Shown here piece by piece: positions 123-38,925 of a DNA stretch of 64,000 bases. The notes under the pieces are model-generated. The model had not been told where the DNA came from and searched no databases. It saw only the letters and a list, made by a program, of their open reading frames with translations. The position numbers and the translations under genes are program-made. Origin of the DNA: Marinomonas sp. THO17. GTDB lineage: Bacteria; Pseudomonadota; Gammaproteobacteria; Pseudomonadales; Marinomonadaceae. Location: contig NZ_AP031575.1 of assembly GCF_040436405.1 (NCBI RefSeq), forward strand, positions 810,501 to 874,500, given 5' to 3'. Position 1 is the first letter of the stretch. Each line of letters opens with the position of its first letter.

Positions 123-347
123 AATAATCTCCATTATTATTGTTATTGGAAAATACGATTTTTTTACTTAGTCTTTAACGTTTCTATTATAGAATTCCGT
201 TGACTGATATTACCAGTATGTATTTCATGCGCAATACAATATTCAAAAAATAACAACAAAAAACTATCAAGTACAAATAAAAAGTCATACAACAGCCAAC
301 AACTCATATTTGAAGAATAGGTCATAAAGAGGATTATTGGAAAAGAA

Positions 348-423
348 TGGTGGGTGTGGAGAGGTTCGAACTCCCGACATTCGCCTTGTAAGGGCGACGC
401 TCTCCCAACTGAGCTACACACCC
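348..423 (-). tRNA. tRNA-Val(UAC), copy 1
   Basis: The minus strand folds as a 76-nt cloverleaf with acceptor GGGTGTG/CACACCC, D-arm, anticodon loop CTTACAA (anticodon TAC), T-loop TTCGAAC and an encoded CCA. It is the last gene of the array in transcription order. I see no clear intrinsic terminator between it and the FadL-type gene (123-347). Confidence 0.95.
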
Positions 424-455
424 ATTTTAGATTTACATCTCTAATGGAAAGATGA

Positions 456-520
456 GGAGTTCTTAACTCCCGGTGTCTATGCGCCTTGTTAGGACAGAAT
501 CCCAACTGAGCTACACACCC
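456..520 (-). pseudogene. tRNA-Val-derived element 1
   Basis: The 5' third matches tRNA-Val (GGGTGTGTAGCTCAGTTGGG), but the anticodon region is diverged. A T-arm-like hairpin GGAGTT-AAG-AACTCC ends the similarity, and the 3' acceptor strand and CCA are missing. It cannot close an acceptor stem, so it is not a working tRNA. Confidence 0.8.
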
Positions 521-552
521 ATTTTAGATTTACATCTCTAATGGAAAGATGA

Positions 553-617
553 GGAGTTATTAACTCCCGGTGACTATGCGCCTTGTTAGGACAGAATCCC
601 AACTGAGCTAAACAGCC
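553..617 (-). pseudogene. tRNA-Val-derived element 2
   Basis: Same element as copy 1 with a diverged 5' end (GGCTGTTTAGC). The 3' hairpin is GGAGTT-AAT-AACTCC. One base change (GTCA for GACA) breaks the short central TGTC/GACA pairing found in most other copies. Confidence 0.75.
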
Positions 618-647
618 TTCATTGTTTTACATCTTGAGGATAGATGA

Positions 648-712
648 GGAGTTCTTAACTCCCGGTGTCTATGCGCCTTGTTAGGACAGAATCCCAACTG
701 AGCTACACACCC
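648..712 (-). pseudogene. tRNA-Val-derived element 3
   Basis: By eye identical to element 1, including the AAG-loop hairpin and the TTTAGATTTACATC flank that leads to the next element. Confidence 0.8.
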
Positions 713-744
713 ATTTTAGATTTACATCTCTAATGGAAAGATGA

Positions 745-810
745 GGAGTTCTTAACTCCCGGTGTCTATGCGCCTTGTTAGGACAAATTCCCAACTTAGC
801 TACCCCCCCC
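745..810 (-). pseudogene. tRNA-Val-derived element 4
   Basis: Same element with its 5' end replaced by a run of eight G (minus strand) and TAGCTAAG in place of TAGCTCAG. The 3' hairpin is GGAGTT-AAG-AACTCC. Part of it lies inside the 671-bp duplicated segment. Confidence 0.75.
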
Positions 811-862
811 GCTAACCGTTTACTTTAGTAACGTTAACTTGAGTTTTACATCTTATGAAAGA

Positions 863-939
863 TGGCGGAACGGACGGGACTCGAACCCGCGACCCCCTGC
901 GTGACAGGCAGGTATTCTAACCAACTGAACTACCGCTCC
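863..939 (-). tRNA. tRNA-Asp(GUC), copy 1
   Basis: A 77-nt cloverleaf with acceptor GGAGCGG/CCGTTCC, discriminator G, encoded CCA and anticodon arm CCTGC-CTGTCAC-GCAGG (anticodon GTC). A hairpin CATCTT-TCAT-AAGATG starts within its CCA and precedes the next element. Confidence 0.95.
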
Positions 940-973
940 ATTGTCATAGGTTGTTTAGCCACTCTCCTATAAG

Positions 974-1049
974 TGGTGGGTGTGGAGAGGTTCGAACTCC
1001 CGACATTCGCCTTGTAAGGGCGACGCTCTCCCAACTGAGCTACACACCC
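974..1049 (-). tRNA. tRNA-Val(UAC), copy 2
   Basis: Same 76-nt sequence as copy 1, with anticodon TAC and encoded CCA. It is followed 34 nt later by tRNA-Asp copy 1. The spacer begins with a CCACT/AGTGG pairing that would include the tRNA CCA. Confidence 0.95.
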
Positions 1050-1073
1050 ATTGCCATTTTAGATCTGACGATC

Positions 1074-1138
1074 GAAGTTCTTAACTCCCGGTGTCTATGC
1101 GCCTTGTTAGGACAGAATCCCAACTGAGCTACACACCC
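1074..1138 (-). pseudogene. tRNA-Val-derived element 5
   Basis: Val-like 5' acceptor strand and D-arm are intact. The 3' hairpin is GGAGTT-AAG-AACTTC, where a G-U wobble preserves pairing. No 3' acceptor strand. Confidence 0.75.
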
Positions 1139-1147
1139 GCTTCATAT

Positions 1148-1211
1148 GGAGTTTTCACTCCCGGTGTCTATGCGCCTTGTTAGGACAACTTCCCAACTGA
1201 GCTACACACCC
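1148..1211 (-). pseudogene. tRNA-Val-derived element 6
   Basis: Hairpin of the second class: GGAGT-GAAA-ACTCC, with a GNRA-type tetraloop. The Val-like 5' half is intact and the 3' acceptor strand is missing. Confidence 0.75.
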
Positions 1212-1237
1212 ATCGATATTTTACATCTTATGAAAGA

Positions 1238-1314
1238 TGGCGGAACGGACGGGACTCGAACCCGCGACCCCCTGCGTGACAGGCAGGTATTCTAACCAAC
1301 TGAACTACCGCTCC
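1238..1314 (-). tRNA. tRNA-Asp(GUC), copy 2
   Basis: Same 77-nt tRNA-Asp sequence, anticodon GTC, encoded CCA. Confidence 0.95.
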
Positions 1315-1348
1315 ATTGTCATAGGTTGTTTAGCCACTTTCCTATAAG

Positions 1349-1424
1349 TGGTGGGTGTGGAGAGGTTCGAACTCCCGACATTCGCCTTGTAAGGGCGACG
1401 CTCTCCCAACTGAGCTACACACCC
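1349..1424 (-). tRNA. tRNA-Val(UAC), copy 3
   Basis: Same 76-nt tRNA-Val sequence, anticodon TAC, encoded CCA. The spacer to the Asp gene differs from copy 2 by one base (CTTTCC for CTCTCC on the plus strand). Confidence 0.95.
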
Positions 1425-1456
1425 ATTTTAGATTTACATCTCTAATGGAGAGATGT

Positions 1457-1520
1457 GGAGTTTTCACTCCCGGTGTCTATGCGCCTTGTTAGGACAGAAT
1501 CCCAACTGAGCTACACACCC
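1457..1520 (-). pseudogene. tRNA-Val-derived element 7
   Basis: GAAA-loop hairpin class (GGAGT-GAAA-ACTCC) with the Val-like 5' half intact. No 3' acceptor strand. Confidence 0.75.
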
Positions 1521-1544
1521 ATTGCCATTTTAGATCTGACCATC

Positions 1545-1609
1545 GGAGTTCTTAACTCCCGGTGTCTATGCACCTTGTTAGGACAAATTCCCAACTGAGC
1601 TACACACCC
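1545..1609 (-). pseudogene. tRNA-Val-derived element 8
   Basis: AAG-loop hairpin class. The central region carries GGTGCATAG in place of GGCGCATAG. Val-like 5' half intact, no 3' acceptor strand. Confidence 0.75.
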
Positions 1610-1635
1610 ATCGATATTTTACATCCTGAGAAAGA

Positions 1636-1712
1636 TGGCGGAACGGACGGGACTCGAACCCGCGACCCCCTGCGTGACAGGCAGGTATTCTAACCAACTG
1701 AACTACCGCTCC
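1636..1712 (-). tRNA. tRNA-Asp(GUC), copy 3
   Basis: Same 77-nt tRNA-Asp sequence, anticodon GTC, encoded CCA. Confidence 0.95.
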
Positions 1713-1746
1713 AGTGTCATAGGTTGTTTAGCCACTCTCCTATAAG

Positions 1747-1822
1747 TGGTGGGTGTGGAGAGGTTCGAACTCCCGACATTCGCCTTGTAAGGGCGACGCT
1801 CTCCCAACTGAGCTACACACCC
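1747..1822 (-). tRNA. tRNA-Val(UAC), copy 4
   Basis: Same 76-nt tRNA-Val sequence, anticodon TAC, encoded CCA. Confidence 0.95.
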
Positions 1823-1846
1823 ATTGCCATTTTAGATCTGACGATC

Positions 1847-1911
1847 GAAGTTCTTAACTCCCGGTGTCTATGCGCCTTGTTAGGACAGAATCCCAACTGA
1901 GCTACACACCC
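1847..1911 (-). pseudogene. tRNA-Val-derived element 9
   Basis: Matches element 5, including the wobble-paired GGAGTT-AAG-AACTTC hairpin. Confidence 0.75.
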
Positions 1912-1920
1912 GCTTCATGT

Positions 1921-1985
1921 GGAGCTTTCACTCCCGGTGTCTATGCGCCTTGTTAGGACAAATTCCCAACTTAGCTACCCCCCCC
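1921..1985 (-). pseudogene. tRNA-Val-derived element 10
   Basis: GAAA-loop hairpin GGAGU-GAAA-GCUCC, in which A-to-G keeps a U-G pair. The 5' end has the eight-G run and TAGCTAAG of element 4. Confidence 0.75.
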
Positions 1986-2037
1986 GCTAACCGTTTACTT
2001 TAGTAACGTTAACTTGAGTTTTACATCTTATGAAAGA

Positions 2038-2114
2038 TGGCGGAACGGACGGGACTCGAACCCGCGACCCCCTGCGTGACAGGCAGGTATTCTAACCAAC
2101 TGAACTACCGCTCC
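2038..2114 (-). tRNA. tRNA-Asp(GUC), copy 4
   Basis: Same 77-nt tRNA-Asp sequence, anticodon GTC, encoded CCA. Confidence 0.95.
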
Positions 2115-2148
2115 ATTGTCATAGGTTGTTTAGCCACTCTCCTATAAG

Positions 2149-2224
2149 TGGTGGGTGTGGAGAGGTTCGAACTCCCGACATTCGCCTTGTAAGGGCGACG
2201 CTCTCCCAACTGAGCTACACACCC
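2149..2224 (-). tRNA. tRNA-Val(UAC), copy 5
   Basis: Same 76-nt tRNA-Val sequence, anticodon TAC, encoded CCA. Confidence 0.95.
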
Positions 2225-2248
2225 ATTGCCATTTTAGATCTGACGATC

Positions 2249-2313
2249 GAAGTTCTTAACTCCCGGTGTCTATGCGCCTTGTTAGGACAGAATCCCAACT
2301 GAGCTACACACCC
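2249..2313 (-). pseudogene. tRNA-Val-derived element 11
   Basis: Duplicate of element 5 within the 671-bp repeat, with the wobble-paired AAG-loop hairpin. Confidence 0.75.
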
Positions 2314-2322
2314 GCTTCATAT

Positions 2323-2386
2323 GGAGTTTTCACTCCCGGTGTCTATGCGCCTTGTTAGGACAACTTCCCAACTGAGCTACACACCC
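2323..2386 (-). pseudogene. tRNA-Val-derived element 12
   Basis: Duplicate of element 6 within the 671-bp repeat, with the GAAA-loop hairpin. Confidence 0.75.
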
Positions 2387-2412
2387 ATCGATATTTTACA
2401 TCTTATGAAAGA

Positions 2413-2489
2413 TGGCGGAACGGACGGGACTCGAACCCGCGACCCCCTGCGTGACAGGCAGGTATTCTAACCAACTGAACTACCGCTCC
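2413..2489 (-). tRNA. tRNA-Asp(GUC), copy 5
   Basis: Same 77-nt tRNA-Asp sequence, anticodon GTC, encoded CCA. It is the first Asp gene in transcription order. Confidence 0.95.
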
Positions 2490-2523
2490 ATTGTCATAGG
2501 TTGTTTAGCCACTTTCCTATAAG

Positions 2524-2599
2524 TGGTGGGTGTGGAGAGGTTCGAACTCCCGACATTCGCCTTGTAAGGGCGACGCTCTCCCAACTGAGCTACACACCC
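2524..2599 (-). tRNA. tRNA-Val(UAC), copy 6
   Basis: Same 76-nt tRNA-Val sequence, anticodon TAC, encoded CCA. It is the first Val gene in transcription order. Confidence 0.95.
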
Positions 2600-2654
2600 A
2601 CTAACCGTTTACTTGCGTAACGTTAACTTGAGTTTTACATCTTAAGAAAGATGT

Positions 2655-2720
2655 GGAGTTCTGAACTCCCGGTATCTATGCACCTTGTTAGGACAAAATT
2701 CCCAACTGAGCCAGACATCC
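2655..2720 (-). pseudogene. tRNA-Val-derived element 13
   Basis: The most diverged copy and the first in transcription order. The 5' end reads GGATGTCTGGCTCAGTTGGG and the hairpin is GGAGTT-CAG-AACTCC. The central TGTC/GATA pairing is kept through a G-U wobble. Confidence 0.7.
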
Positions 2721-2760
2721 AACTCATTCAGCTGGCCTCATCACTATTAACAATAGTGAG

Positions 2761-2836
2761 TGGTGCCGCCACCAAGAGTCGAACTCGGGACCCTCTGATT
2801 ACAAGTCAGATGCTCTACCAACTGAGCTATAGCGGC
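2761..2836 (-). tRNA. tRNA-Thr(UGU), copy 1
   Basis: A 76-nt cloverleaf with acceptor GCCGCTA/TGGCGGC, anticodon arm TCTGA-CTTGTAA-TCAGA (anticodon TGT), T-loop TTCGACT and encoded ACCA. Confidence 0.95.
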
Positions 2837-2881
2837 ATAACGCCAAATAAAAATATTATTACTTTCTCAATAGTGAAGTAA

Positions 2882-2957
2882 TGGTGCCGCCACCAAGAGT
2901 CGAACTCGGGACCCTCTGATTACAAGTCAGATGCTCTACCAACTGAGCTATAGCGGC
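2882..2957 (-). tRNA. tRNA-Thr(UGU), copy 2
   Basis: Same 76-nt tRNA-Thr sequence. The spacers between the four Thr genes (about 45-60 nt) share no clear similarity, unlike those of the Val/Asp part. Confidence 0.95.
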
Positions 2958-3000
2958 ATAACTATAGCTAACGCAGTTTACTCTTATCATTCCATATAAA

Positions 3001-3076
3001 TGGTGCCGCCACCAAGAGTCGAACTCGGGACCCTCTGATTACAAGTCAGATGCTCTACCAACTGAGCTATAGCGGC
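3001..3076 (-). tRNA. tRNA-Thr(UGU), copy 3
   Basis: Same 76-nt tRNA-Thr sequence, anticodon TGT, encoded CCA. Confidence 0.95.
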
Positions 3077-3137
3077 TTTAACAAAAGCAAAATCTTTTTT
3101 AATCTCTTACCTAAAGCAAGACATTTTCACCAAGAAA

Positions 3138-3213
3138 TGGTGCCGCCACCAAGAGTCGAACTCGGGACCCTCTGATTACAAGTCAGATGCTCTACCAACT
3201 GAGCTATAGCGGC
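3138..3213 (-). tRNA. tRNA-Thr(UGU), copy 4
   Basis: Same 76-nt tRNA-Thr sequence, anticodon TGT, encoded CCA. It starts 10 nt after the Pro gene ends. Confidence 0.95.
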
Positions 3214-3223
3214 TAAAAATTCT

Positions 3224-3300
3224 TGGTCGGGACGGCAGGATTTGAACCTGCGACCACTAGCACCCCATGCTAGTGCGCTACCAGGCTGCGCTACGCCCCG
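3224..3300 (-). tRNA. tRNA-Pro(GGG)
   Basis: A 77-nt cloverleaf beginning CGGGGCG with anticodon arm CTAGC-ATGGGGT-GCTAG (anticodon GGG) and encoded CCA. It is the first gene of the minus-strand array. A tRNA-Pro close to ihfA is also found in some pseudomonads (recalled, not searched). Confidence 0.95.
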
Positions 3301-3330
3301 ATGCAAACAACAACACTGTCGTTGTCAGCG

Positions 3331-3343
3331 GGTGCGTATATTA
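3331..3343 (-). promoter_or_regulatory. candidate promoter of the tRNA array
   Basis: The minus strand has TAATAT (3338-3343) followed by a GC-rich discriminator ACGCACCC. This resembles the rnpB promoter in this window (TAATAT then GCGCCTC). No good -35 box is visible at 16-18 bp, so this is a weak prediction. Confidence 0.3.
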
Positions 3344-3513
3344 CTATAACGAGTTGAAAAGGGAAGACTTTTATTAACTTTTTTTCGATTTTATCACTGC
3401 ATTCTCAAAAGCAAATCAAATAGATTAAGCATTGATCTAAATATCATTATTCATGCCCTATCTTATTATCCGTGATCCACAATTTACCAAGTTGACTTAA
3501 TGTATACACACGC

Positions 3514-3540
3514 AAAAAAGCCACCATAGAGGTGGCTTTT
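3514..3540. terminator. terminator after ihfA
   Basis: Inverted repeat AAAAGCCACC / GGTGGCTTTT around a 5-nt loop, with an A-run on the plus strand giving a U-tract for minus-strand transcripts. It closes the pheST-ihfA transcript and could work in both directions. Confidence 0.85.
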
Positions 3541-3556
3541 CAGGCATCATTTGCGC

Positions 3557-3853
3557 TTACTCTTGCATATAATCTTCAACTTTAGACTTGAGCTTTTGAC
3601 CCGGCCTAAAGGTAACAACAGTACGAGCAGTAATTGGAATTTCTTCCCCTGTTTTTGGGTTTCGACCAGGCCGTTGACTCTTCTCTCGAACTTCGAAGTT
3701 ACCGAAGCCAGACAGTTTCACTTGTTCTCTTTCAACAAGGGAATTACGCACAACGCCAAAAAAACCCTCAACCAAATCTTTAGCATCTTTTTTACTAAGA
3801 CCAATTGAATCGACTAAGTTTTCAGCAAGGTCTGCTTTCGTCAACGATCCCAT
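3557..3853 (-). CDS. ihfA: integration host factor subunit alpha
   Basis: Encodes a 98-residue DNA-bending protein of the HU/IHF family that works as a heterodimer with IHF-beta in nucleoid architecture, transcription and recombination. The sequence shows the family core [13 protein letters not shown] (about 46-58) and the DNA-binding arm [17 protein letters not shown] (61-77), the latter essentially as in E. coli IhfA. It starts 4 nt after the pheT stop, and its AAGGGGG ribosome-binding site lies inside the end of pheT, so translation is probably coupled. The pheT-ihfA order is conserved in gammaproteobacteria. A strong terminator follows. Confidence 0.97.
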
Positions 3854-3857
3854 AAAT

Positions 3858-6242
3858 CTACCCCCTTACAACGGCTCCCAATTTTTCGGACAGTGCTTTC
3901 ACCGCCTGCTCGACAGAGTTGTTTACTTCTTCATCACTAAGAGTGTGTGAAGGATGCTGCCACGTCAAGCCCAAAGCAACACTTTTTTTCGATTCATCAA
4001 TACCTTGTCCCTGATAAACATCAAAAACCAACACATCTTTGAAAGCATCACCAGCAGATTGTACAATCACAGCTTCCAATTCATTCACCGGAACATCGCG
4101 ATCCAGTAACAAAGCAAGGTCACGTCGTACTTCCGGGAAACGAGATACCGCTTGATACTCTGGTAATGTCGCATTCAATACCGCATCTAAAGCAATATCA
4201 AACACATACAGAGTTTGCTTAGCACCCAGCGCTTTCGCTATTTGTGGATGTAACTCCCCCATCAAACCAACAAATTCACCGTTAAGGTAAATATTCGCAG
4301 AACGACCTGGATGCAAGAATTCACAGGTAGAACGCTGATAAGTCGGTTGACCACCATTGTTCACCGCAAATAAAGCTTCAACATGCGCTTTAAGATCATA
4401 GAAATCCACCTTCTCATTATTGTGGTACCAGGCTTCAGGATGACGACTTCCAGCAATCAAACCGGAAATTTGCAATTGCTGATCCAACTCATCAAGCGCA
4501 TCAACAGAACCGATAAAACGACGCCCAGTTTCAAACAAGCGTACACGGGATTGCTGACGGTTCTGATTGTATAAATAGGCTTTCACCAAACCTGGAATCA
4601 AACTTGGACGCATGACCCCCATATCCGCTGAGATAGGGTTTTCTAATGGCACAGGTTCAATTTCAGGTAAAAACTGCTTACTTAAGCTAGGGTCGATGAA
4701 ACTGTAAGTGACCGCTTCTTGATAACCATAAGAGACCAAAGTAGCACGCAATGATTGAATCGGTGTTTTAGATTCGCTCAATGGGGTGAAATTGACCGCG
4801 GCTGATGGCATAGAAGAAGGCAGATTATCGTAGCCATAAATACGCGCTACTTCTTCGATCAAATCCGCTTCAATAGCAATATCAAATCTGTGAGATGGTG
4901 CTTTTGCTACCCAAGCTTGATCCGTCACTTCAACCATTTCAAGACCAAGTCGCGTTAAGATATCAGTCACCAAGTCTTTTTCTAAAGACATGGCAAGATA
5001 CTGATCTAACTTTTGACGACGTAAGGTTACTTCAGTCGCGACAGGCAAAGCATCTTCATTCACCGCCTGAGTGATTGGACCAACTTGACCGCCAGCAATT
5101 TCCAATACCAGCTGAGTAGCACGCTCAATGGCTTTTTCTTGCAACGAAGCATCAACACCACGCTCAAAACGGTGAGATGAATCCGTATGCAAACCATAAG
5201 AACGGGCTTTGCCAGCTAAAGCTAATGGTGTAAAAAAAGCACTCTCAAGAAAAATGTCTTGTGTTTTCTCATTCACTCCTGATCCTTCGCCACCCATAAT
5301 ACCAGCAATAGCAAGTGGCGCCTGTTCATCAGCGATCACCATAGTATCTTCGCGCAAACTAATCTCTTGACCGTCTAGCAAGACAATCTTTTCACCAGCG
5401 CCTGCCATACGAACCACCACGGAACCACTTAAGTTCGCTAAGTCGAAGGCATGCATAGGCTGGCCTAATTCCAACATTACATAATTGGTAATGTCGACAA
5501 TAGGATCAATCGAACGAATGCCGCTACGACGCAGTTTTTCTGTCATCCACAATGGCGTTTCTGCGCTGACATTCACACCGCGGATCACACGACCAAGGTA
5601 ACGTGGACAGGCATCAGTCGCCTCCACTTTCACAGGAAAAGCATCCGCTATACTCACTTCTGCAGCCTGAATAGCAACCGGCGTCAGATCAACTTTATTC
5701 AATACACCTACTTCACGAGCCAAACCCGCAACACTTAGGCAATCACTACGATTTGGCGTCAAATCAACGTCAATGATCTGATCATCTAACCCTAGAAAAG
5801 CACGAAAATCCTCGCCTGTTGTCGCACCTAGTGGCAATTCCATAATGCCGTCGTTGTCTTCACTTACACCTAATTCAGAAGCGGAGCACAACATACCGAA
5901 CGACTCAACCTGACGCAACTTGGCTTTTTTGATTTTGAAATCATCACCTAATACAGCGCCAATTTTAGCGAATGGAATCTTAATTCCTGGACGAGCGTTT
6001 GGCGCGCCACATACCACTTGAAATTCTTCTTTACCATCTGACACACGACAAACTTGTAACTTGTCGGCATTCGGGTGTGGCTCAGCAGCCAAGATTTCAC
6101 CCACAACTACACCACTGAAGGGTGCCGCAGCTGGCAATACTTCATCAACTTCTAAGCCAGCCATGGTAATTTGAGCAACCAAATCATCGCTACTGATGTT
6201 TGGATTGACCCACTCTCTTAGCCAATTCTCACTAACTTTCAT
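3858..6242 (-). CDS. pheT: phenylalanyl-tRNA synthetase beta subunit
   Basis: A 794-residue beta chain of the alpha2-beta2 class IIc enzyme that charges tRNA-Phe in the cytoplasm. The N-terminus ([14 protein letters not shown]) leads into an EMAP/tRNA-binding-like domain at about 40-150 ([20 protein letters not shown]). The B3/4 editing and B5 regions follow, and a C-terminal ferredoxin-like anticodon-binding domain begins around residue 700 ([19 protein letters not shown]). Length is normal (E. coli 795). It lies 22 nt downstream of pheS and almost touches ihfA, forming a pheS-pheT-ihfA unit. Confidence 0.98.
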
Positions 6243-6264
6243 ATAAACATCCTAGGTCGACTGA

Positions 6265-7263
<999 letters not shown>

Positions 7264-7274
7264 TCACTCCAAAA

Positions 7275-7312
7275 AATAAAATAGGGGAAGAGCATTGGCT
7301 CTTCCCCTATTA
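7275..7312 (-). terminator. pheS leader terminator / candidate attenuator
   Basis: In the minus-strand RNA a 13-bp stem AATAGGGGAAGAG / CTCTTCCCCTATT closes on CCAATG and is followed by TTATTTTTT, then immediately by the pheS ribosome-binding site. Upstream, AAGAGCAT (plus-strand ATGCTCTT, 7346-7353) can pair with ATGCTCTT in the loop and 3' arm. That gives an alternative antiterminator fold. Position and structure suggest attenuation of pheST, as known in E. coli, but I see no Phe-rich leader peptide upstream of the hairpin. Confidence 0.75.
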
Positions 7313-7386
7313 AAGACTGCATTGAGTCACTCGTTCTATTAAGAGATGCTCTTTCAAGATCGAATCACCCTAAGGCTACGTCAGAA

Positions 7387-7743
7387 TTAAGCCAAGCTTG
7401 CTTTCGCTTTTTCAACGATCGCTGCAAAAACTTCTTTCTCGTACACAGCTAGATCAGCCAAAACTTTACGGTCGATTTCGATTGCAGCTTTCTTAAGACC
7501 TGCAATGAAACGGCTATAAGACAAACCGTTTAGACGAGCCGCAGCGTTAATACGAGCAATCCACAATGCACGGAATTGACGCTTACGTTGACGACGGTCA
7601 CGGTATTGATATTGACCAGCTTTGATGACAGCTTGTTTTGCTACACGAAATACACGACTACGTGCACCGTAGTAACCTTTAGCTTGCTTTAAAATCTTCT
7701 TGTGACGGCGACGAGCCTGAACACCACGTTTTACGCGAGGCAT
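7387..7743 (-). CDS. rplT: 50S ribosomal protein L20
   Basis: A 118-residue, very basic early 23S-rRNA-binding assembly protein ([19 protein letters not shown]...), full length for the family. In E. coli L20 also represses translation of rpmI-rplT, and that feedback is likely here because the infC-rpmI-rplT order is the same. An AAAGGGT ribosome-binding site precedes the start. Confidence 0.98.
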
Positions 7744-7786
7744 AATATAAACCCTTTACTAATGAATTAATGACTAAAAATGAAAC

Positions 7787-7981
7787 TTAAACGTATGGCA
7801 ACATGCGTACAATTAACGCTTTGTCGCTTTGTGCAACTTGGTTCAAAGAACGAAGATGACGTTTACGCTTAGTCGATTTCTTAGTCAAAATGTGACTAGT
7901 ATGAGACTGCTTATGTTTAAAACCATTCGCGGTACGTTTGAAGCGCTTAGCTGCGCCACTGTGTGACTTAATTTTGGACAT
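7787..7981 (-). CDS. rpmI: 50S ribosomal protein L35
   Basis: A 64-residue basic ribosomal protein ([22 protein letters not shown]...), the standard length. It lies between infC and rplT, 43 nt upstream of rplT. Its ribosome-binding site is weak (GAGAGTGG, rather far from the ATG), as would fit translational control by L20. Confidence 0.97.
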
Positions 7982-8025
7982 GATAAAACCACTCTCGCAT
8001 TCGTTAATGTTAATGTAATTTACCT

Positions 8026-8049
8026 ACGCGACGCATAATCACGCCGCGT
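8026..8049 (-). promoter_or_regulatory. infC-rpmI intergenic hairpin, candidate L20 operator
   Basis: The RNA can form ACGCGGC-(10 nt)-GTCGCGT, a 7-bp stem with one G-U pair, shortly after the infC stop. L20 autoregulation in E. coli uses an RNA structure between infC and rpmI. Assigning that role here is inference from position only. Confidence 0.35.
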
Positions 8050-8055
8050 GAGAAA

Positions 8056-8589
8056 TTACTTCTTCTTTTTGGGGCCTAGCACCATAGTCAATTGACGACC
8101 TTCCATTTTCGCAGCTTGTTCAACTGTACCGTATTCCTCTAAGTCTTGAGCGACTCGATTCATAAGTTGCATCCCAAGCTCCTGATGGGCCATTTCACGA
8201 CCGCGGTATCTAAGTGATACTTTGGCCTTATCCCCGCCTTCAAGGAAACGTATCAGGTTGCGGAGTTTTACCTGATAATCCCCTTCCTCCGTCCCTGGAC
8301 GGAATTTCATTTCTTTAACCTGGATTTGCTTCGCATTTTTCTTTTGAGCAGCCTTCGCTTTTTTCTGCTCAAAAACATGCTTACCGTAGTCCATAATCTT
8401 ACAAACAACTGGATCAGAGTCAGCGATTTGTACTAAATCAAGGCCCGCTTCTTGAGCTGCTTGTAGCGCCTCTTCAATCGATACAACACCAATTTGTTCA
8501 CCATCCGCTGCGATTAGACGCACTTCAGTTGCTCGAATGTTCTCGTTGATTTGAGGACGCTGCTTGTTAGCGGCACGTCCACGATTCAT
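8056..8589 (-). CDS. infC: translation initiation factor IF-3
   Basis: A 177-residue IF3 that binds the 30S subunit, blocks subunit joining and proofreads start codons. The N-domain ([19 protein letters not shown]) and C-domain ([20 protein letters not shown], then [20 protein letters not shown]) are joined by a lysine-rich linker. The only sensible start is an ATG nine bases after the thrS stop, preceded by AAGG. E. coli infC uses a rare AUU start for autoregulation; no in-frame ATT or ATA start is present between the thrS stop and this ATG. Confidence 0.97.
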
Positions 8590-8597
8590 ATTACCTT

Positions 8598-10535
8598 TTA
8601 TAGCTCTATCTCCACTTCTTGTTTACGGCTACGGCGAGCAACTTCTTTTTGAAGCAAATCTTCAAAATCAGAAATACTCATTACTCCAAGATCTTCACCA
8701 GAACGAGTTCGCACTGCGACTTGTTGATTTTCAACTTCTTTGTCGCCGATAACTATCATGTAAGGGACTCGTTGAAGAGTATGCTCGCGAATTTTAAACC
8801 CGATCTTCTCGTTTCTCAAGTCAAGTTTTGCTCTAAAGCCGTTTGAATTCAATCTTTTTTCCAAATCAGAGCAATAATCTGCTTGGCGATCAGTAATATT
8901 CATTATTACCACCTGCTCTGGGGCTAACCAAGCAGGGAAAGCGCCTTCACTTTCTTCGATCAAGATACCAATGAAACGCTCCAAAGAACCCACTATGGCT
9001 CGATGCAACATAACGGGTGTTTGACGCGAACCGTCTTCGGAGACGTATTGCGCACTCAAACGCGTTGGCATTGAGAAATCGACCTGCATAGTACCGCATT
9101 GCCAAACACGGCCAATCGCATCTTTTAAGGAAAATTCTATTTTAGGCCCATAGAAAGCCCCTTCACCTGGTAATTCTTCCCATTCCAGGTTAGCCGCATC
9201 TAATGCGTCCGCCAAGGCTTTCTCAGATTTATCCCAAACCTCATCAGAACCCACTCGCTGTTCTGGACGAGTAGACAAACGATAAATAATATTTTCAAAT
9301 CCAAAATCTGCATAAACTTCGTGCAGCAGCTTAATGAATTCAGAGACTTCTTGCTGAATCTGGCCTTCTGTCACAAAGATGTGTCCATCATCCTGTACAA
9401 AGTTACGCACACGCATAATACCGTGCAATGCACCTGATGGCTCGTTACGGTGACAAGAACCAAACTCCGCCATACGGAATGGTAAGTCACGATAACTCTT
9501 CAGACCTTGGTTATATACCTGAATATGACACGGGCAGTTCATTGGTTTCACGGCGTAATCACGGTTTTCAGAATGAGTAGTAAACATGTTTTCATGATAC
9601 TTACCCCAGTGACCGGATTTCTCCCACAAAACACGATCCACAATTTGTGGCGTTTTTACTTCTTGATAGCCATTATCAAGCTGTTTCTGACGCATGTACT
9701 GTTCAACCACTTGATACAAGCGCCAACCTTTAGGATGCCAAAACACCATACCGGGAGCTTCTTCTTGTACATGAAAGAGATCTAGCTTTTTACCCAGTTT
9801 ACGGTGATCACGCTTTTCTGCCTCTTCAATACGATTCAAATAGGCTTTTAATTCTTTCTTATCATTCCACGCTGTACCATAAATACGCTGTAATTGCTCA
9901 TTGTTAGAATCACCGCGCCAATATGCACCAGCCAACTTCATCAATTTAAAATGACGCAAAACACGAGTATTTGGCACGTGAGGGCCACGACACATATCCA
10001 TGTATTCTTCGTGATGATACAAACCCACCTCTTTGACAGAGTCGTCCATATCATCGATAAGAGACACCTTATAAGATTCACCACGATCAACAAATTGCTG
10101 ACGCGCATCGGCAATCGGCGTCATTTTCTTCACAACGTCATAATCCGTTTTGATCAACTCAGCCATGCGCTTTTCGATAGCGGCAAGATCCTCTGGTGTA
10201 AAGGGACGCTCATACGCAATATCGTAATAGAAACCTTCATCAATTACCGGACCTATGGCCATTTCAGCCGTTGGGTACAATTGCTTAACCGCGTGACCAA
10301 CAAGGTGAGCAAAGGAGTGGCGAATGATTTCAACCCCTTCTGCATCCTTACCGGTTACTATGCTGAGATCTGCGTCGTTTGTGATCAATTCACAAGCATC
10401 GACAAGCTGACCATTGATACGACCCGCCACCGTTGCTTTTGCAAGACCAGGACCAATATCCTCGGCCACTTGCATCACAGTTACAGGATCAGAAAAAGAA
10501 CGTTGACTGCCATCAGGCAAAGTAATTACAGGCAT
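8598..10535 (-). CDS. thrS: threonyl-tRNA synthetase
   Basis: A 645-residue class II synthetase. Domains in order: TGS (about 1-61), N2 editing domain with the [10 protein letters not shown] motif (from about 73) for hydrolysing Ser-tRNA-Thr, a zinc-dependent catalytic core (MNCPCHI and later [15 protein letters not shown]), and a C-terminal anticodon-binding domain. Length matches E. coli (642). The leader carries a hairpin that mimics a tRNA-Thr anticodon arm, so translational autoregulation is likely. It is the first gene of thrS-infC-rpmI-rplT, and AGGGGA precedes the ATG. Confidence 0.98.
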
Positions 10536-38571: not shown

Positions 38572-38925
38572 AAAAAGCAAGTTGGTCGATAAGCCGGGTT
38601 CTGTCGTGGACAGTCATTCATCTAATACGTACATCACTGCACGTCTTTAGCAACCTACCCGAACTCAGCGCGGGTCACGCCAAAGAGTTCCTATTTGGTC
38701 TTGCTTCAAGTGGGGTTTACCATGCCACAAACTGTTACCAGTCGCGCGGTGCGCTCTTACCGCACCATTTCAACCTTACCGGCAGTAAACTGCTTAGGCG
38801 GTATATTTTCTGCTGCACTTTCCGTAGGCTCACGCCCCCCAGGTGTTACCTGGCACTTTACCCTGCGAAGCCCGGACTTTCCTCCCCCCATAAATATATG
38901 AGCGGCGACTGCCTGACCAACTTGC
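38572..38925 (-). ncRNA. rnpB: RNase P RNA component
   Basis: Type A RNase P RNA, the catalytic RNA that matures tRNA 5' ends. Recognisable parts on the minus strand are GAGGAAAGTCCGGGC near the 5' end, the central GGTAAGAGCGCACCGCGCG region, CAAATAGGAACTC, and the 3' segment AGATGAATGACTGTCCACGA followed by CAGAACCCGGCTTATC. Helix P1 is perfect: GCAAGTTGGTC at the 5' end (38925-38915) pairs with GACCAACTTGC at the 3' end (38587-38577), followed by a U-run. Ends are approximate to a few bases. Confidence 0.96.

Follow-up and report, generated by a model that had tools for sequence, protein, structure and literature searches.

Refolded tRNA-Val pseudogenes amplified in a tRNA array of Marinomonas as putative structured processing spacers

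Introduction

In the 64,000-nucleotide (nt) stretch of Marinomonas sp. THO17 analyzed here (NZ_AP031575.1, positions 810,501 to 874,500; hereafter the window), working tRNA-Val and tRNA-Asp genes are interleaved with copies of a tRNA-Val-like element of about 65 nt, which raises the question of what these elements are and what, if anything, they do in a tRNA array. A sequence-only reading of the window had regarded them either as inert debris carried by unequal crossing-over or as stable RNA pieces acting as spacers, processing signals or decoys for valyl-tRNA enzymes. By examining their ancestry, predicted folding and distribution, we came to favor, with modest confidence, the view that the elements serve the tRNA precursor as structured processing spacers and descend from one refolded tRNA-Val(UAC).

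The elements and their predicted fold

The claim of 13 copies among true tRNA-Val and tRNA-Asp genes was borne out by ARAGORN, a repeat search and a covariance model. The repeat search located 13 copies of the element core at 447–2702, and the covariance model returned exactly 13 elements of 64–66 nt in the window, scoring 58–91 bits versus 39 bits for each of the six real tRNA-Val genes. One element follows the last tRNA-Thr gene, while the others lie between tRNA-Asp and tRNA-Val or in tandem, and no copy was found outside the array in the rest of the 3.92-Mb genome (one contig).

The element has adopted a predicted fold that is not that of a tRNA and that the sequence-only reading had overlooked. 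It comprises a long irregular hairpin, P1 (UGUGU/GCAUA or GGUGU/ACACC; GCU/GGC; GUUGGGA/UCCUAAC), and a short hairpin, P2 (GGAGUU/AACUCC), usually followed by a third, P3 (CAUCU/AGAUG), and then UAAA(A/U). The hairpin previously described as T-arm-like does exist and is P2, with 6 base pairs (bp) and a loop of 3–4 nt, but it has no T-loop. For most elements the fold surpassed dinucleotide shuffles by 2–5 standard deviations, and it still did so with the tRNA-like first 21 nt kept constant. The copies are as follows, with covariance model scores in bits and, for some, the z-score of the fold.

424–455, minus strand: example of P3 (CAUCU..AGAUG) and AU-rich linker (UAAAUCUAAAAU) between element 13 and tRNA-Val, from the sequence and the fold
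456–520, minus strand: element 13, last before the final tRNA-Val; 90.5 bits; z −3.8 with P3
553–617, minus strand: element 12; 82.6 bits
648–712, minus strand: element 11; 90.5 bits
745–809, minus strand: element 10, 5' end changed to a G run; 72.2 bits
1074–1138, minus strand: element 9; 85.8 bits
1148–1211, minus strand: element 8; 77.2 bits; z −4.3
1457–1520, minus strand: element 7; 79.0 bits; z −4.9 with P3
1545–1609, minus strand: element 6; 87.5 bits
1847–1911, minus strand: element 5; 85.8 bits
1921–1984, minus strand: element 4, 5' end changed to a G run; 58.4 bits; weak fold, z −1.4
2249–2313, minus strand: element 3; 85.8 bits
2323–2386, minus strand: element 2; 77.2 bits
2655–2720, minus strand: element 1, first in transcription order, after the fourth tRNA-Thr; 81.4 bits

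Descent from tRNA-Val

Judged from its sequence, the element is a tRNA-Val pseudogene by origin and no longer a tRNA. Its first 21 nt (GGGUGUGUAGCUCAGUUGGGA) are those of tRNA-Val in most copies (mean identity 90%, with 14 of 29 distinct elements perfect), while identity to tRNA-Val falls to 59–68% beyond them. The tRNA-Val-like start that had been reported thus stands, except that the D-arm does not persist as such: it has lost its 3' strand, and the window-type element retains none of the four D-stem pairs. Across the elements, 2–5 of seven acceptor pairs, 0–3 of four D pairs, and 2–5 of five pairs in each of the anticodon and T stems are left. Even at E ≤ 10, the Rfam tRNA family matched none of the 13 copies, nor was any element matched in a genome-wide scan. 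With the cloverleaf broken and no Rfam tRNA match, we rejected the possibility that the element is a functional tRNA. The element sequences contain neither an encoded CCA nor a full 3' acceptor strand, as the sequence-only reading had held of both, but some copies retain a vestige of that strand (CCACAUCU for CCACACCC), which is now part of P3.

A likely birth stage of such elements was found in another Marinomonas genome, G033, where a 141-nt Asp-Asp spacer carries a fresh tRNA-Val fossil whose first 45 nt are intact and are followed by unrelated sequence. This truncated fossil is not refolded (z 0.2). We propose that one tRNA-Val(UAC) gene died early in the main Marinomonas clade, losing its D-stem partner, T-loop, most of the 3' acceptor strand and CCA, and that all elements would descend from it. 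The dead copy would then have refolded, its former 5' half pairing with its own altered middle to form P1, followed by P2 and usually P3, and the AU-rich single strand beyond the hairpins would adjoin the next tRNA-Val.

Maintenance of the pairing

We examined whether the pairing is maintained in two alignments. A hand alignment of 29 distinct elements, built with knowledge of the structure, has 95% of its cells paired and six pairs with double changes, compared with a null mean of 1.3 and a maximum of 5 in 2000 shuffles. The MAFFT alignment covered 15 distinct elements and has 98.1% of its cells paired, whereas slid structures reach only 37–60%; it contains three pairs with double changes and gives a covariation score of 0.129, each value being equalled by one of 500 shuffles. 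Changes on both sides of a pair across species, as expected of a conserved structured RNA, are therefore present in both alignments when kinship is ignored. In addition, M. sp. UCMA 3892 (z −2.6) and genome G028 (z −2.8) have highly diverged elements that keep the two-hairpin fold despite a very different sequence, while decaying copies lose it.

Distribution and conservation in Marinomonas

The sequence-only reading had suggested searching related genomes with a covariance model, and such a search showed that 12 of 50 Marinomonas genomes carry well-preserved elements at this same position; this is the recurrence of a conserved, amplified family inside a working tRNA array, as that reading had described it, rather than a lack of copies in relatives beyond the neutral decay of tRNA-Val. 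Well-preserved elements score 47–91 bits in this model, tRNA-Val 39–41 bits and degenerate elements below 37 bits; degenerate elements occur in at least four further genomes (TW1, M. transparens, UCMA 3892 and G028). A PheT scan found the array in most of 35 named Marinomonas loci, with contigs ending inside the array left unscored. Copy number ranges from 0 to 13 among genomes, every inspected copy lies upstream of a tRNA-Val, and presence of the element follows the main clade on the PheT tree. At 19 alignment columns most elements share, across clades, a state unlike that of tRNA-Val (in one column, 13 of 13), which points to a single origin followed by losses. The one search that reached outside the genus, an early blastn, gave no match in 21 genomes from other families of the order; the genomes returned by the family-level search with the covariance model were all from Marinomonas. 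A phage origin was rejected, as the element had no match in 50,697 phage records.

We next compared the element with its neighboring spacers. Where identity at four-fold sites is below 0.45, that is, near saturation, the element beyond its first 21 nt averages 0.77 identity, compared with 0.67–0.69 for Thr-Thr spacers, 0.56 for Val-Asp spacers and about 0.48 for random sequence. Of these parts the element is conserved best, but the other spacers are likewise under constraint or exchanged between species. When the window is compared with KMM3893, identity past the first 21 nt is 87% for the elements, whereas four-fold sites are 46% and neighboring Val-Asp spacers 48% alike (random about 48%), and a recent block transfer therefore does not explain this pair. 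Recent horizontal transfer of array blocks was rejected as the sole cause of the similarity, since in window/KMM3893 and window/M. foliarum the neighboring Val-Asp spacers are no more alike than random sequence while the elements are 0.82–0.87 identical. Exchange or strong constraint does occur in other pairs, which have identical or near-identical spacers. Some Val-Asp and Thr-Thr spacers are identical or 0.94–0.98 alike between species near four-fold saturation (window/M. aquiplantarum; metagenome-assembled genome B4/KMM3893), with one Val-Asp spacer of the window identical in M. aquiplantarum, which suggests exchange between species or very strong constraint. From these genome comparisons, the element appears to be old, genus-wide and structurally maintained, yet dispensable.

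Possible role of the elements

Among the roles considered in the sequence-only reading, a structured spacer or processing signal agrees best with the sequences, whereas a decoy for valyl-tRNA enzymes is unlikely and was rejected on anatomy, since the element has no acceptor end and no CCA and its anticodon region lies inside the P1 helix. The elements would be transcribed within a Pro-Thr4-(Val-Asp)n precursor and would act there as structured spacers, presenting stem-loops beside an unpaired UAAAA, an arrangement that RNase E cuts. In E. coli, efficient cutting of tRNA precursors by RNase E at unpaired sites needs an adjacent tRNA or a simple stem-loop (PMC9841416). Both these guiding structures and the element place a stem-loop next to an unpaired segment of a polycistronic tRNA precursor; in E. 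coli the structure is a neighboring tRNA or a terminator hairpin (PMC9841416), whereas in Marinomonas it would be a dead tRNA turned hairpin. In the predicted fold, a stem-loop does adjoin an unpaired AU-rich stretch, with P3 followed by UAAA in most elements preceding a tRNA-Val, and among the spacers that precede tRNA-Val, 33 of 38 long ones but 17 of 53 short ones contain UAAA(A/U) in their final 30 nt. Copies would move, multiply and vanish through recombination between identical tRNA repeats.

The refolding may alternatively have been a damage-limiting change, and this and the processing spacer are jointly the most likely explanations. Folding calculations weakly suggest that the new fold may also keep the genuine tRNA-Val downstream from losing its 3' half to the tRNA-like 5' half of the element. 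Ancestry, location, genus-wide recurrence, and the predicted fold and its maintenance come directly from the comparisons above, whereas co-transcription, the RNase E role and the target of selection are what we infer from them.

Several results weigh against a processing role. The outgroup clade (M. aquimarina, M. ostreistagni and Maribrevibacterium) and several main-clade species have no element in the arrays seen; arrays without it occur in at least nine of the species examined, which makes it dispensable. Decay is evident in some copies (two in M. aquiplantarum and those of TW1), and since Thr-Thr spacers are also conserved far above neutral, the element is only moderately special. The UAAA enrichment stems partly from the shared ancestry of the elements, and the shuffle controls on pairing disregard their relatedness. 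Furthermore, the predicted probability of the tRNA-Val cloverleaf is about 0.9 without the element, but with the native element it drops to 0.36–0.44 in all but one of six contexts, the exception being 0.77. When the 3' part of the element was shuffled, the values were 0.29–0.39 in those five contexts and 0.89 in the remaining one; the native element thus does only mildly better than shuffled ones, and insulation of tRNA-Val was rejected as the main role on this weak folding support.

The foremost rival is that the elements are inert pseudogene debris, that is, a truncated tRNA-Val multiplied without effect by unequal crossing-over between identical tRNA genes. Identical tRNA repeats provide a ready recombination mechanism, and the varying copy number, the lack of the element in many species, the decay of some copies and the existence of fresh, unrefolded fossils such as that of G033 all agree with this explanation. 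Accordingly, the part of the debris proposal that concerns duplication and loss holds. However, copies sit at the same place in relatives, share derived columns at near-saturated synonymous divergence, show compensatory changes and retain the same fold with little sequence left, while the fresh G033 fossil is not refolded. Simple neutral debris is therefore unlikely, and we place it well behind the leading explanation.

Less probable still, as far as the sequences can tell, is that the elements are released as stable small RNAs that regulate or act as sponges, like the RtT RNA of the E. coli tyrT operon or the leuZ 3' external transcribed spacer. The elements are compact, thermodynamically stable units of 65–97 nt repeated many times in a tRNA precursor, and tRNA operons do release such RNAs, RtT being cited in PMC4986893 as an RNA released on processing of the tyrT operon. 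Against this, the element is missing from many species, and the Rfam RtT covariance model gave no match up to E 10 at window positions 300–3330. A small selfish or mobile repeat using tRNA arrays as a niche would account for many copies and patchy presence, but we consider it very improbable, as all copies of the window genome are in this one array, every copy inspected in relatives immediately precedes a tRNA-Val, and the copies showed neither an end structure nor a target-site duplication. Internal promoters for each tRNA-Val, suggested by TTAAGA-17-TAAAAT ending a few bases before the tRNA in four copies in a consensus scan, are least probable of all and were rejected: the region has 7 promoter-like sites versus 5.3 ± 3.0 in shuffles, and the hexamer spacing is not kept in elements of other species.

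Comparison with known systems

The elements belong to a known phenomenon, tRNA-derived repeats in tRNA operons. The RtT/tyrT repeats of E. coli are likewise repeated tRNA pieces in a tRNA operon; RtT derives from the 3' end of tRNA-Tyr, whereas the element comes from the 5' part of tRNA-Val and has refolded. Giroux, Beaudet and Cedergren reportedly described in 1988 a tRNA-Pro/tRNA-His cluster of Photobacterium phosphoreum with tRNA pseudogenes. In that cluster, truncated tRNA copies are reportedly amplified in a repetitive tRNA operon of a marine gammaproteobacterium; the element differs in its parent tRNA, and the Photobacterium cluster is not known to have a conserved new fold or to recur across its genus. 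A pseudo-tRNA of Bacillus cereus (tRNA-Other) is degenerate and does not serve translation, although it may have a role (PMC3399842); it flanks a genomic island, whereas the element forms a many-copy family inside a working array.

What the Marinomonas elements add is a dead tRNA gene that gained a new, maintained RNA fold within an essential tRNA operon, together with a traceable series from fresh fossil through refolded element to remnant. They thereby offer a testable case for the origin of structured spacers in tRNA precursors and for the recognition of stem-loops by RNase E.

The tRNA array and a second family of tRNA pieces

The array occupies the minus strand at window positions 348–3300 and consists of tRNA-Pro(GGG), four tRNA-Thr(UGU), and then six tRNA-Val(UAC) alternating with five tRNA-Asp(GUC) at 348–2599, all assigned by ARAGORN:

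348–423, minus strand: tRNA-Val(UAC)
863–939, minus strand: tRNA-Asp(GUC)
974–1049, minus strand: tRNA-Val(UAC)
1238–1314, minus strand: tRNA-Asp(GUC)
1349–1424, minus strand: tRNA-Val(UAC)
1636–1712, minus strand: tRNA-Asp(GUC)
1747–1822, minus strand: tRNA-Val(UAC)
2038–2114, minus strand: tRNA-Asp(GUC)
2149–2224, minus strand: tRNA-Val(UAC)
2413–2489, minus strand: tRNA-Asp(GUC)
2524–2599, minus strand: tRNA-Val(UAC)
2761–3213, minus strand: four tRNA-Thr(UGU) genes
3224–3300, minus strand: tRNA-Pro(GGG), first gene of the array

It lies downstream of what we take, from the conserved gene cluster, to be thrS-infC-rpmI/rplT-pheS-pheT-ihfA. The six tRNA-Val(UAC) genes are the only ones of the genome, and a genome-wide scan gave five tRNA-Asp matches, every one in this array. 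Because the array holds all genes for these two tRNAs, any effect of the elements on the precursor bears on translation.

The same genome contains about ten copies of a 46-nt piece of tRNA-fMet, comprising the T-arm region, 3' acceptor strand and CCA, in which the T-stem-loop is replaced by another hairpin. The pieces surround the tRNA-fMet genes at 137.8–138.8 kb (positions 535–1300 of 137500–139000), beside one full-length pseudo-tRNA-fMet scoring 28.8 bits to Rfam tRNA, and matches to them occur in 32 of 50 Marinomonas genomes, although weak matches can include a true tRNA 3' end. This family is similar in kind to the E. coli RtT repeats, and the Rfam RtT model did not match it. It is conceivable, if rather doubtful, that tRNA fragments in Marinomonas became structured operon modules at least twice, from the 5' part of tRNA-Val and the 3' end of tRNA-fMet, and that these modules genuinely contribute to precursor processing or, once released, act as small RNAs that control translation capacity.

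At 348–3213, a hairpin follows most tRNAs of the array; its 5' strand begins within the CCA end or right at it, as in CCACUU..AAGUGG after tRNA-Val, and such hairpins also occur in relatives. The window also contains an RNase P RNA (bacterial class A, 328 bits) at 38574–38924. In several Marinomonas genomes, the tRNA arrays are split by inserts of about 4–7 kb between tRNA genes (G021, 1500–8900; G001, 950–4650; G031). By eye, the G021 insert reads as a type I restriction-modification system and the G001 insert includes transposase-like and LysR-type open reading frames.

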